From positions 1 through 54,526 of the forward strand of contig JAIRPF010000089.1 in assembly GCA_031257115.1 (NCBI GenBank): 54,526 bases of DNA, given 5' to 3'. The stretch comes from Accumulibacter sp. GTDB lineage: Bacteria > Pseudomonadota > Gammaproteobacteria > Burkholderiales > Rhodocyclaceae. Shown piece after piece: positions 2,944 through 46,229 of the stretch (position 1 is its first letter; every line of letters begins with the position of its first letter). A model generated the notes under the pieces. It had not been told where the DNA came from, did no database searches, and was given only the letters and a program-made list of their open reading frames with translations. A program made the translations under genes and the position numbers.

Positions 2944-3313
2944 GGAAGCCGGCCGATAAGCCGGGTTCTGTCGTGGGCAACCATTCCTCTAGGCGCGCCG
3001 TTACCGGCGCGCTCAAGCAGCCTACCCGGAAGCGGCGCGAGCCACGCCATGCGCTTCCCTATTTGGCCTTGCTTCGGATGGGGTTTGCCGTGCCGTCCGT
3101 GTCGCCACGTCCGCGGTGGGCTCTTACCCCACCGTTTCACCCTTGCCGTTCCGGGTTGCCCCGGACTTGGGCGGTCTCCTCTCTGTTGCACTTTCCGTCG
3201 CTTTCGCCTCGCGGCTTATGGCGCCCGGCCGTTAGCCGGCATCCTGCTCTGTGAAGCCCGGACTTTCCTCCCCGCGCCGAAAGACGCGCAGCGGTTGCCT
3301 GACCGACTTCCCG
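2944..3313 (-). ncRNA. rnpB: RNase P RNA, bacterial class A
   Basis: Catalytic RNA that matures tRNA 5' ends. Read on the minus strand, the 5' region has the universal GAGGAAAGTCCGGGCT (near 3255-3275) followed by agagcaggatgccggctaac. The 3' region gives cttgagcgcgccggtaacgg and ends with the pairing partner ccggcttatcggccgg. The length of about 370 nt fits the family. The ends are approximate by some bases. A TATAAT -10 box lies directly upstream (3319-3324). Confidence 0.93.
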
Positions 3314-3318
3314 CCGGC

Positions 3319-3324
3319 ATTATA
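3319..3324 (-). promoter_or_regulatory. -10 box of rnpB
   Basis: The minus strand reads TATAAT, a perfect -10, placing the RNA start near 3312, which agrees with the expected 5' end. No good -35 hexamer is seen at 16-18 bases upstream. Confidence 0.6.
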
Positions 3325-3466
3325 CGCCGGAGCGCCGCCGCGCCGGGATGTTTCGCGCTTTTTCATCGCGCGCGGGAAAGGACTTTGGGCCACGGAGTTC
3401 ACGGAGGACACGGAGAAAATCTCGCGGGCAATCCGCGCGGGCGGGAATCCTGTGCCTACGCATCCC

Positions 3467-41838: not shown

Positions 41839-43017
41839 TTATTTGTATTCGGCGATGAACCCGTGCGCGGGATCCGCGGGGTCATAGGCGGGGCCGTAGT
41901 AATAAGTCCCGCAGAAAATCCGCCCCGATGCCGTGATGTTGTGCAAATAAGTTTCATGCACCTTTACATTCGGATCCTGATAATCGATGGAAGTATATCC
42001 CTTGCCTTCTTCTTTACCCGTTTTCACGAACATGTGTTCCTCGTCACCAGCATTGGGGGAGTATTCGGTGGTGTAGCCCCCAATGAACTCCCCGGCGCTA
42101 TTGACACCGAGAACATAGGTGTCGTAGGCGCCCGGATAATCGATGGGGATGTATCCTTTATCCTTTTCCTTTCCCTCTTTCACGAATCCATGCTGCCTGT
42201 TGCCGGTTTCGTAATATCCGAAAATCCGGAAAACCGGGCCGGAAGCGGCGATATTGATGATTCTGGTTTGCTCCGCCCCTGGGTAAGCGACGTCGATGTA
42301 TTCCCCGCCGTCTTTCACGAAGGCATATTCCACAGGCTGTCCTGAAAGGTTGGCGAATTGAGGCGGGGTGTAACTTCCGTAAACCCGGCCGGAAGCGTCA
42401 ACGCCGGAAATTTCGGCGCTCACCCCCTGATAAACAATGGAGACACAAGCCGCGCCCACACCGTTTTTCTCGAATCCTCTCACAAGCCCGACATCCCCGG
42501 TAATTTTGTAATTTCCGAAAATCTTGCCGGAAGCGTCGATGCCTATGATTTCAGTCTCTATCGCGCCCAGTTCCGGACAATCGACGGTAACAAGGCTGTC
42601 AAAGCTCTCCCCGACCTGCACGAACCCATGCCAAGCGCCTCCGGCAGTCTCGTAATCTCCGAAAATCCGGCCTGAAGCATCAAAGCCTCTGACATAAGTA
42701 GAGACCGCTCCCGAATAATTGACGGAAGTATAGCCGGCATCGTCCTCGCCGACTTTCACGAACCCATACCTCTTGTCATCGCCGGAATTCAAGTACCACC
42801 CGGAAACTCGGCGGGATTCGTCAACATTCTCAACGTAAGTAAAGTACGCGCCCGGATAGTCGATTCTCGTGAAAACGAGCGATCCGCCGGGTTCGCCGCC
42901 ATTTCCATCGCTTCCGCCCCCTCCGGTATCACTACCGCCGCCATCGCCACCGCCGCCGCAACCGGCCAGCGCGGCCGCGAGAACAATGGCCGACAGAACA
43001 CTCCATAACCGTTTCAT
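41839..43017 (-). CDS. Lipoprotein with HAF-type extracellular repeats
   Basis: Predicted surface or periplasmic lipoprotein of unknown function. The 392 residues begin with a signal and lipobox (AAALAGCGGGG, Cys about residue 19), then a Gly/Ser-rich linker. Seven or eight repeats of about 45 residues follow. Each has the form YPGAxxTYVxGxDASGRIFGxY followed by HGFVKxG and GYTSIDY, as in the HAF family of probable extracellular repeats, which likely form a beta-propeller. Its codon use is less GC-rich than neighbours. It splits cobU from the cobQ remnant and has its own terminator. The ATG at 43017 has GGAAAGGA before it. Confidence 0.8.
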   Translation of the reverse strand: MKRLWSVLSAIVLAAALAGCGGGGDGGGSDTGGGGSDGNGGEPGGSLVFTRIDYPGAYFTYVENVDESRRVSGWYLNSGDDKRYGFVKVGEDDAGYTSVNYSGAVSTYVRGFDASGRIFGDYETAGGAWHGFVQVGESFDSLVTVDCPELGAIETEIIGIDASGKIFGNYKITGDVGLVRGFEKNGVGAACVSIVYQGVSAEISGVDASGRVYGSYTPPQFANLSGQPVEYAFVKDGGEYIDVAYPGAEQTRIINIAASGPVFRIFGYYETGNRQHGFVKEGKEKDKGYIPIDYPGAYDTYVLGVNSAGEFIGGYTTEYSPNAGDEEHMFVKTGKEEGKGYTSIDYQDPNVKVHETYLHNITASGRIFCGTYYYGPAYDPADPAHGFIAEYK

Positions 43018-43068
43018 AATCAATTCCTTTCCGATAAAAACACTCAATCACGAGGAGCATGAAAAGCG

Positions 43069-43468: not shown

Positions 43469-43672
43469 GAAAAAAATGAAAACTCCATCATTTGAATCGA
43501 AAACGCTCCAGGAATGTGGGTTCGCGGACTTCCAAATGCTCGTTACCGCGCTTCGGGCATCGATCGAAGTGGGTTACTGGTGAGCACGACACGCGGCCTG
43601 TAGTGGCGCGCATGCCAGCGGGCAAGGAACAGCAGACACGGAGTTTGGCGTTCGTGCTTTGCGACAGCCAAC

Positions 43673-43697
43673 AAAAAAGCCCGCTGGGCGGGCTTTT
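43673..43697 (-). terminator. Terminator of the 43731-44159 gene
   Basis: aagcccgc (43677-43684) pairs with gcgggctt (43688-43695), with TTTTTT following on the minus strand. Classic rho-independent form. Confidence 0.88.
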
Positions 43698-43730
43698 CGG
43701 TGGGCGGCGGGCGGGTCGTCTAGCAAGTTC

Positions 43731-44159
43731 TTAGCTCGTCACGGTTGCGCGCCCGCTGATGCCATTGAACTTGCGCCACTGGTACAGCTCGATCTGGACG
43801 TTGTTGATGTTCCACCCCTTCGCCTCCGCGACCGGCTGCAAGTCCTTCGGCTTCATGTTGCCGTGCTGGTCTAGGTACTCCCACACCTCCAAGCACTTGC
43901 CGGGGCCGGGACGCTTCACCCCGTTCTGCTCGACACGCTCCACCTTCGGGGCTGCTTCCTTCTTAGGCTTGCCTGTGGTCACCACAGCGTCGGCGGGCGC
44001 AGCTTCGGCAGCGGGTGCCGGTGCTTCCATCGCCTTCCAGCCGAAGCGCACACCATCCGCAGATTTATGTACGGTGATTTCCACCAGTTCGGCGGGCACC
44101 CCTGCGGCAACACCAGCGCGGCGGGCGTTCTCGCGTTTCGTGTAGGTCTTGGCTTCCAT
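43731..44159 (-). CDS. Small basic protein with helix-turn-helix-like C-terminus
   Basis: A 142-residue protein I do not recognise. The N-terminal third has ENARRAGVAAGVPAELVEIT and the centre is an Ala/Pro/Lys-rich linker. The last 60 residues (CLEVWEYLDQHGNMKPKDLQ, NINNVQIELYQWRKFNGISG) look like a winged-helix or SAP-type DNA-binding fold. Own terminator downstream. It lies in the foreign patch beside a tRNA-Ser and a DUF3800 gene, and such proteins are common on phage-like islands. DNA binding is inferred only. Confidence 0.65.
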   Translation of the reverse strand: MEAKTYTKRENARRAGVAAGVPAELVEITVHKSADGVRFGWKAMEAPAPAAEAAPADAVVTTGKPKKEAAPKVERVEQNGVKRPGPGKCLEVWEYLDQHGNMKPKDLQPVAEAKGWNINNVQIELYQWRKFNGISGRATVTS

Positions 44160-44287
44160 GTCGTTGCTCCTGTGCGGGTTGAAGTACGCACATTGCAGGA
44201 CAGGTCTCCGGGAAGCGGCAAGCGATATTTGGGCATGCCATCTCGATGAAGCTGGCGGCGCTCTAGCCTATTGCAAACATGGTTGCG

Positions 44288-44989
44288 CTAGGTTCGCACG
44301 TACAGCCCATGCTCAACGCCCCCCTCAGTATCGAAGCAGTGCTTGATCACATCATAGAAACTGTTATCACCATACTCATGGAGGCGGAACAGCGCGTAGG
44401 CGACCAAGTCCGCGAGTTGGATCAACCGAGACGCCTTAGAGTCCAAGAACACGGGAACCTCAGCGTAGTTGCTGGTTTTGCCCCACGTATGCCCTGTGTA
44501 TTTGAACTCGCGTGCAAGCGTTTGAATGCGCTGTTCTGTTGAGGACTCATCAAACAACATGATCCCCCGCTGGCTGTCCTGGTGCTTATGATGGAGCCGC
44601 TTCAAGAACAGATCGAATCGGCTAGTTAGCTGCTCAAAAGCGTGCGTGACAGGGTCTTGCCCGGCAATCGCATCTTTTTTGATCACAGCGCCAAACAGAC
44701 GAACCCCTTTGGGGTAGTGATCAGCAACGCCGAATTGGAGCGCATCTTTAATGGCGGTCAGACGATCAGGAAGGGGGTGCGCTTTCCAGCCATCACGTCC
44801 TGCGCGCATTGGGGAGCCATGCAGCTCAATTGCATGAGGATTGGCAGGGGAGAACCTCAATGCTACTTCATTGAGTTTTTGTTCGATCCAGTGGGTCTTG
44901 CGCTCAAACACAGCAACCCCTGCCAGCACAAAATACTTCTGTGCTGGATCTGTTACTGACCCTGACTCATCAACGTAGAACAGATGCAT
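44288..44989 (-). CDS. DUF3800 domain protein
   Basis: A 233-residue member of DUF3800, an RNase H-like fold family often found in mobile and defence islands, with no defined role. It shows the family's acidic motifs: FYVDESGS at residues 4-11, LFDESS near 145 and LIQLADLVAYALFRLHEYGD near 195-215. It has a lower GC and different codon use from the flanking genes. Upstream lie a promoter (45106-45134) and a hairpin with a U tract (45009-45032) between promoter and gene, so expression may be attenuated. Confidence 0.85.
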   Translation of the reverse strand: MHLFYVDESGSVTDPAQKYFVLAGVAVFERKTHWIEQKLNEVALRFSPANPHAIELHGSPMRAGRDGWKAHPLPDRLTAIKDALQFGVADHYPKGVRLFGAVIKKDAIAGQDPVTHAFEQLTSRFDLFLKRLHHKHQDSQRGIMLFDESSTEQRIQTLAREFKYTGHTWGKTSNYAEVPVFLDSKASRLIQLADLVAYALFRLHEYGDNSFYDVIKHCFDTEGGVEHGLYVRT

Positions 44990-45002
44990 CCATTGCCCCT
45001 AA

Positions 45003-45099
45003 ACGAAAACAGGCCGCACAACGGCGGCCTGTGGAATTAGGTAAGCCAGGAGGGAAAGAATCCCAACGCACCGCAAAAAGGTCAGCGCATCCCGACTTG
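45003..45099 (-). ncRNA. Candidate small RNA or attenuated leader
   Basis: From a predicted start near 45099, transcription on the minus strand would reach a perfect 9-bp hairpin (acaggccgc 45009-45017 with gcggcctgt 45024-45032) followed by TTTTC. This yields an RNA of about 95 nt. It could be a stand-alone small RNA or the leader of the DUF3800 gene. Confidence 0.4.
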
Positions 45100-45105
45100 C
45101 TTTGA

Positions 45106-45134
45106 ATTGTACACCTGCCTGCGTGTGCGAGCAA
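45106..45134 (-). promoter_or_regulatory. Promoter upstream of DUF3800
   Basis: Minus strand TTGCTC (45129-45134) and TACAAT (45106-45111), spacer exactly 17. Confidence 0.6.
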
Positions 45135-45150
45135 GCGAGTAGCTGCTAGA

Positions 45151-45240
45151 TGGCGGTGGGTCAGGGATTCGAACCCTGGAAGGACTTACATCCTTGCTAG
45201 TTTTCAAGACTAGTGCATTCAACCGCTCTGCCAACCCACC
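45151..45240 (-). tRNA. tRNA-Ser (anticodon UGA)
   Basis: Complete 90-nt class II tRNA with CCA encoded. The acceptor stem GGTGGGT pairs with ACCCACC, the anticodon arm is ctagt-cttgaaa-actag, a long variable arm follows, and the T arm is CAGGGTTCGAATCCCTG. Its acceptor stem differs from the tRNA-Ser(UGA) fragment at 45356-45397, so it is a separate tRNA, probably brought by the island. Confidence 0.95.
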
Positions 45241-45355
45241 TAATTCTGTGACGCGCTAAGAATCTGCTAAACGGCGCAAAAGCCAGCGCTAGGAGAATCT
45301 TTGCAACACGTTGTTTTTACTGCAATTTGCGTCGTTCGCGTGCCGTCTGAACGCA

Positions 45356-45397
45356 AGTTTTCAAGACCGGTGCAATCGACCACTCTGCCACGCTTCC
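45356..45397 (-). pseudogene. 5' half of a native tRNA-Ser(UGA), broken at the anticodon loop
   Basis: Read on the minus strand, GGAAGCG opens the acceptor stem, then the D arm and caccggtcttgaaaac, after which similarity ends (ttgcgttcag). The 12 bases agttttcaagac (45356-45367) are shared with the complete tRNA (45199-45210), consistent with an integration core in the anticodon loop. Confidence 0.82.
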
Positions 45398-45536: not shown

Positions 45537-46229
45537 ATGCAAACACAATTTCGGATGACGGGCCAGGCGGCACGGGTGGGTACGCTGCAACAGAACAGGG
45601 TGCTGCGGAATACGTACCTGCTGCTGGCGGTCTCCATGCTGCCCACCGTGGCGGGCGCCGTTCTGGGCGTCAACATGGGATTCTCGCTTTTCGCGGGCAG
45701 CCCGATGGTTTCTTTCCTGCTGTTCCTGGGGATCGCGTTCGGTTTCATGTGGGGCATCCGGCGCGCCAGGAATTCCGGGCTGGGCGTCGCGCTCCTGCTG
45801 GGATTCACGTTCTTCATGGGCCTGATGCTTTCGGGCATCCTGCGGGCGGCGCTCGGCTTTTCCAACGGCCCGGCGCTGATCGCCACGGCCGCCGGCGGGA
45901 CCGGCGCGATCTTCTTCACGCTGGCCGGAATCGCCACCGTGACGAAGCGGGATTTCAGCTTCATGGGCAAATTCCTGTTCATCGGGCTGGTGGTGATCCT
46001 GCTGGCCATGCTGGCCAACCTGTTCTTCCAGATTCCCGCGCTGGCGCTGACGGTTTCGGCGATGGCGGTGCTGATTTTCTCGGGCTACATACTGTTCGAC
46101 ATCAGCCGGATCGTGAACGGCGGCGAAACCAACTACATCATGGCGACGCTGGCGGTCTATCTGGATATCTACAACCTTTTCGTGCATCTCCTGAATCTGC
46201 TGATGATCCTTTCCGGTCGAAGGGACTGA
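45537..46229 (+). CDS. Bax inhibitor-1/YccA family membrane protein
   Basis: Seven-helix inner-membrane protein; the E. coli homologues YccA and YbhL relate to FtsH control or calcium leak. The 230 residues begin MQTQFRMTGQAARVGTLQQN and contain family stretches AAGGTGAIFFTLAGIATVTK (about residues 121-140) and SGYILFDISRIVNGGETNYI (about residues 182-201). GAGGAGG precedes the ATG, and a good terminator follows at 46258-46285. Confidence 0.92.
   Translation: MQTQFRMTGQAARVGTLQQNRVLRNTYLLLAVSMLPTVAGAVLGVNMGFSLFAGSPMVSFLLFLGIAFGFMWGIRRARNSGLGVALLLGFTFFMGLMLSGILRAALGFSNGPALIATAAGGTGAIFFTLAGIATVTKRDFSFMGKFLFIGLVVILLAMLANLFFQIPALALTVSAMAVLIFSGYILFDISRIVNGGETNYIMATLAVYLDIYNLFVHLLNLLMILSGRRD

Follow-up and report, generated by a model that had tools for sequence, protein, structure and literature searches.

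The window, that is, the whole 54,526-nt stretch of Accumulibacter sp. DNA analyzed here, very probably carries the degraded remnant of a small integrative element that entered the anticodon loop of the host tRNA-Ser(UGA) gene, left that gene broken and supplied a complete tRNA-Ser(UGA) of its own. Since the integrase, attR and the 3' half of the target are missing, the window taken alone is suggestive, and we infer its integration event from relatives that retain the complete anatomy.

On the minus strand, positions 45397 to 45357 read GGAAGCGTGGCAGAGTGGTCGATTGCACCGGTCTTGAAAAC, which corresponds to the 5' half of a tRNA-Ser(UGA) gene; tRNA sequence is lost just past the anticodon loop. An intact tRNA-Ser(UGA) gene, mostly of the GGAAGCG acceptor type, divergently adjoins Bax1-I in most members of the genus with a readable site (one genome, G010, was left out of the counts: no broken half was found in it, and its Bax1-I and tRNA genes lie ~40 kb apart). 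Thus, the fragment in the window, which lies beside the same Bax1-I gene, is the native gene, broken in place, and not a chance match; a break in the anticodon loop is what the original prediction had claimed. That prediction also placed a complete tRNA with the same anticodon and a different acceptor stem 116 bases away. ARAGORN and Rfam located it at 45240-45151 as the one tRNA of the window, a complete tRNA-Ser(UGA) (58.6 bits) with an encoded CCA. Its acceptor stem is GGTGGGT...ACCCACC, unlike the GGAAGCG of the broken half, and the gap between the two is 116 nt (118 nt counted from the loop). They do share the predicted 12-base sequence, but most of it is conserved anticodon-arm sequence; judging from related attL/attR pairs, the core that was exchanged is probably the 7-nt loop CTTGAAA.

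Table 1 Features of the element remnant and its site (positions in the window unless stated otherwise).
Feature	Position	Strand	Remarks
Remains of the integrated element	43571..45365	-	Integrase and attR lost by deletion; similarity to related elements ends at 43571
142-aa backbone gene of the element family	43731..44159	-	Homologues in 10 complete elements
DUF3800 cargo gene	44288..44989	-	In the variable cargo slot adjoining the rescue tRNA
Intrinsic terminator-like hairpin	45009..45032	-	Downstream of the rescue tRNA; consensus match only
Complete element-borne rescue tRNA-Ser(UGA)	45151..45240	-	Sole one in the genome
Element left end, core to rescue tRNA	45241..45358	-	118 nt; conserved blocks TAAAAACAACG and CGCCGTTTAGCAGATTCTTAGC
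Broken 5' half of native host tRNA-Ser(UGA) (attL, host side)	45357..45397	-	Acceptor and place beside Bax1-I same as in the relatives' intact gene
CTTGAAA, 7-nt anticodon loop, putative crossover core	45359..45365	-	Shared by attL and attR in every complete relative
Host Bax1-I (YccA-like) gene, ancestral-site anchor	45537..46229	+	Divergent from the tRNA
tRNA-Ser(GCU) site of Sphingobium MAG L211 (own coordinates)	3305-3396 and about 11480	reverse-complement	

tRNA-Ser(UGA) is the reader of UCA and is taken as essential in the host of the window. A pattern search of its whole genome (42 tRNA matches, estimated 100% complete, 212 contigs) revealed the broken half and one complete gene for tRNA-Ser(UGA), and nothing more; the remaining serine tRNAs read GGA, CGA and GCU. 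The prediction had held that an intact second GGAAGCG gene, together with the lack of a 3' half, would point to a simple duplication remnant. No intact second GGAAGCG gene is present in the genome. The native 3' half (T arm plus CGCTTCC) was not found in the 212-contig draft at up to 3 mismatches; a copy in an unassembled gap is conceivable, although the contig runs past the element without it. Nor was a close integrase found in this genome. The proposed check for an integrase near the displaced 3' half thus found neither in the genome itself, and in 13 complete relatives the integrase adjoins the lone 3' half. The relatives show a later deletion of the 3' half in the window genome and not a duplication.

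The relatives were collected with the integrases of Zoogloea sp. 1C4 and Niveibacterium sp. 24ML and a partial one from an IMG/VR element as queries, which yielded 18 related loci in named genomes. The three-row alignment of these integrases worked in genome contigs, and a lone integrase query in viral contigs gave one weak match. Twelve of the 18 loci, together with that of G006, form the set of 13 complete elements. These measure 4,757-12,950 bp and reside in Zoogloea, Niveibacterium, Denitromonas, Dechloromonas, Comamonas, Magnetospirillum, Sphingobium and other hosts; the family spans Alpha-, Beta- and Gammaproteobacteria. Starting from attL, their order is the host 5' half, the rescue tRNA, variable cargo, backbone genes, a tyrosine integrase and the lone host 3' half. 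The integrase, a tyrosine recombinase with an arm-binding domain, occurs in all 13 (truncated in G006), and an HTH_17 excisionase-like gene precedes it in 8.

The stretch common to attL and attR is the CTTGAAA anticodon loop alone, with one additional A in some elements. When the flanks were joined at this core, an intact tRNA-Ser(UGA) resulted in 13 of 13 cases; attL alone and attR alone each gave none. A complete tRNA-Ser(UGA) lies inside attL in the window and in every complete relative. Each of the 15 carrier genomes searched has one complete tRNA-Ser(UGA), and a lone 3' half accompanies it in all but the window genome (14 of 15). In each of those 14, the 3' part of tRNA-Ser(UGA) has two true matches, namely the rescue gene and the lone half, whereas the window genome has the rescue gene alone; the Sphingobium carrier has one extra match, which is not tRNA-like. 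None of the ORFs in the complete elements examined was recognizable as a gene for a capsid, portal, tail or large terminase protein, and representative element proteins match integrase, excisionase and primase/helicase families. The cargo slot of other members holds restriction-modification genes and similar; next to the rescue tRNA of G557 (L187 4122-5785), it encodes a DNA methyltransferase and a BamHI-type restriction enzyme. The predicted event, in which an element equipped with a rescue tRNA integrates into the anticodon loop and leaves the host gene unrestored, is thus seen in full in the 13 complete relatives. The spacer and tRNA of the window are homologous to those of elements in Comamonas kerstersii, a Rhodocyclaceae MAG, a Dechloromonas MAG and IMG/VR.

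These relatives bear directly on other origins of the two genes. A tandem duplication of tRNA-Ser(UGA) followed by truncation of one copy, with no mobile element involved, would account for two related sequences lying 116 nt apart in the same orientation and for a genome without the 3' half. However, the acceptor stems are not alike, element DNA from other genera matches both the second tRNA and the spacer preceding it, and the lone 3' half of the 13 relatives lies 4.8-13 kb off, beyond the integrase; we consider such a duplication very improbable. Ordinary integration, restoring the 3' half of the tRNA at the junction, with the 5' half a fragment from some later event, is the usual mode at tRNA genes. 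It is also what we observed for a related integrase (48% identity) in the Sphingobium MAG L211, which has a classical layout at tRNA-Ser(GCU), with the intact tRNA at one end and a lone 3' half at the other; the rescue mode consequently lies within an integrase group that has classical members too. Against this stand the 13 complete relatives, none of which has a functional junction or shares more than the loop between attL and attR, and restoration in the window is hardly credible. Finally, a chimeric contig in which a host tRNA fragment was joined to unrelated phage or element DNA might be feared in a 212-contig draft, but the junction coincides precisely with the loop here and in 13 other genomes, isolates included, and the ancestral neighbor is kept on the host side, so that an assembly artefact is just as hard to credit.

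Integration of an element with its own rescue tRNA also fits the remnant left in the window. Its spacer is 77-86% identical to those of four related elements and 55% identical to a fifth, and spacer and tRNA together show 90-92% identity over about 215 bp to the Comamonas kerstersii and IMG/VR elements. Window positions 45151-45367 and 43571-44184 are 90% and 92.5% identical to the C. kerstersii element, and 92% and 92.5% identical to the IMG/VR contig. The rescue tRNA itself shows 100% identity to its counterparts in the IMG/VR element, in C. kerstersii and in a Rhodocyclaceae MAG, and 98.9% identity to that of a Dechloromonas MAG. As the 118-nt spacer differs by 14-19% from those of the three with the identical tRNA, the tRNA is under constraint. 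The two conserved blocks of the left end are likely integrase arm sites. The 142-aa protein has a 98% identical counterpart in the IMG/VR element and homologues in 10 complete elements.

Phage matches of the DUF3800 protein had initially pointed to the remnant of a prophage, but attL and the 142-aa gene, both shared with the small-element family, assigned the remains to that family instead. No relatives of the DUF3800 protein were found among viral contigs. Position 43571 is adjoined by a putative C-terminal cobQ fragment and a REP-like repeat, and this is the presumed deletion junction; the short ORF read as cobQ had no Pfam match. G+C content is 55-59% over 42-46 kb, near the low end of the range in the window (55-72%). 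A repetitive 402-aa ORF at 41839-43047, without a Pfam match, adjoins cobalamin genes.

The arrangement recurs in the family. Within the genus, G006, G015, G019 and G002 each have a broken 5' half, after which comes a different, complete tRNA-Ser(UGA), and G032, from another genus of the family, also has a broken half and a complete gene. A family-wide scan found the arrangement in 5 of 200 genomes, adding five genera. The order-wide scan for tandem broken and complete genes (399 genomes) returned chance matches and one true tandem duplication only; beyond the family, such a pair is thus uncommon with this spacing. G006 keeps the lone 3' half with a decayed integrase adjoining it. In G019, the 5' half is more decayed and the sequence after the rescue tRNA reads as host housekeeping genes, with no element genes recognized downstream, as if the rescue tRNA were the lone survivor of its element. 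The broken half of G002 is of the GGAGGTG type, which other elements carry as their rescue tRNA; this suggests serial replacement. The attL regions of G015, G002 and G019 (L104, L084 and L109) belong to a second element type, with the junction CTTGAAAGCCG and repeated TTCCGCAA motifs, which also brings a complete tRNA-Ser(UGA) and for which no integrase was identified.

In our model, which we regard as very probable, a tyrosine integrase catalyzes recombination between the 7-bp anticodon loop of the single-copy host tRNA-Ser(UGA) gene and a matching attP core. Because this core has no tRNA 3' half joined to it, as the related complete copies show, the target gene is permanently split. The complete tRNA-Ser(UGA) just inside the left end would then be expressed and charged and take over the lost function, and survival of the cell would require it. 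Once integrated, the rescue tRNA would be indispensable to the host, and for that reason kept while the remaining element decays; from the window genome, deletion has since removed the integrase, most of the backbone genes and the 3' half.

How the rescue tRNA is transcribed may differ between two branches. In half of the elements, it lies 9-29 nt inside attL: the distance from core to tRNA is 9 nt in Niveibacterium and Lampropedia, 19 nt in Zoogloea and S. stutzeri, 20 nt in Denitromonas, Brachymonas, D. agitata and G006, and 29 nt in G540. Such a spacer is too small for a sigma-70 promoter, which points to read-through from the host tRNA promoter; most likely, the tRNA would be released from this transcript by RNase P trimming. 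For the long-spacer branch, including the window (118 nt), a promoter of the element is possible. Long-spacer relatives have a TATAAA-like sequence, a weak indication, which is altered to TGCAAA in the window, and no sigma-70 consensus was found in the window spacer. The conserved blocks TAAAAACAA and CTTAGCGC lie 3' of the tRNA in the short-spacer branch and 5' of it in the long-spacer branch; read as integrase arm sites, they place the tRNA inside attP. We tentatively hypothesize, at somewhat less than even confidence, that small non-phage elements carry a rescue tRNA within attP, that the short-spacer tRNA, having no room for its own promoter, is turned on only beside the host tRNA promoter, and that integration both destroys and replaces an essential gene, permanently fixing the element tRNA, with successive replacements of tRNA-Ser(UGA) across Rhodocyclaceae as the result.

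tRNA-dependent lysogeny has been described and experimentally shown in actinobacteriophages, with its frequency elsewhere raised as a question; Fionnbharth, the cluster K4 and L phages and Gaia are named cases (Guerrero-Bustamante and Hatfull 2024, PMC10865867). As in those phages, the present family combines a tyrosine integrase, an attB overlapping a tRNA gene (single-copy here and presumably essential), junctions without a functional tRNA, a short core and an element tRNA of the same isotype. The stretch common to attP and attB is about 8-10 bp in the actinobacteriophages, and the core is CTTGAAA(A) here. The carriers described there are full temperate phages, for example at tRNA-Lys(TTT) or tRNA-Leu(CAA) (PMC10865867), whereas the present elements are 4.8-13 kb long, reside in Proteobacteria, use tRNA-Ser(UGA) and place the rescue tRNA beside the core inside attL. 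In its strict sense, the term denotes a temperate phage with virion genes, which were not recognized in the complete elements examined; we therefore regard the family as working like tRNA-dependent lysogeny, yet do not class it as phage.

The Lactobacillus johnsonii prophage Lj965, from Firmicutes, leaves its tRNA unrestored and encodes the cognate tRNA, as cited in PMC10865867; the likeness follows that description. In Sinorhizobium, tRNA substitution by prophages has been reported (PMC11476347, PMC12429752): as in our family, a tRNA gene of the element takes the place of the host gene for the same isoacceptor, and the authors liken this to tRNA-dependent lysogeny. The available text of these reports concerns alphaproteobacterial prophages and describes no small-element family having complete att pairs.

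With classical tRNA-targeting islands and P4-like satellites, the family shares an arm-binding tyrosine integrase, an HTH_17 excisionase-like gene, a replication ATPase and variable defense-type cargo; classical islands, in contrast, restore the 3' half of their target. The small size, the integrase with HTH_17 and AAA_25/DUF3987 genes and a DUF5681 gene are suggestive of a P4-like or PICI phage satellite, for which mobilization by a helper would be hypothetical. In one viral contig (L216/L217, IMGVR_UViG_2574180211_000006, 1-37155), a small rescue-tRNA element with the core GACTTGAAAAC stands directly behind an apparent tailed prophage, a layout that suggests tandem integration and perhaps a helper relationship.

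In our literature search, in which most subscription papers were outside reach, no description was found of small non-phage elements acting in this way or of tRNA-Ser(UGA) as the target. What appears new is the small size without recognized virion genes, the proteobacterial range, the tRNA-Ser(UGA) target and, in half of the elements, the rescue tRNA 9-29 nt inside attL. With this family, tRNA-dependent integration reaches beyond actinobacteriophages to satellite-like elements of small size in three classes of Proteobacteria, and it is testable because complete att pairs exist in sequenced isolates. It also explains how a tRNA gene that is essential and as a rule passed on vertically can be replaced horizontally and why a spare tRNA outlives its element, by which tRNA annotation and gene trees can be misled. 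A core that targets the loop and has a tRNA embedded in it could also be used as a tool for integration in which selection is built in.

A different kind of interruption was observed in L085 (G003:C291, minus strand near 2071), where tRNA-Ser(UGA) is split inside the anticodon by an insert of ~213 nt. The insert, over which no Rfam intron family scored above threshold, looks like a small group I intron, and its flanks rejoin to a full tRNA.
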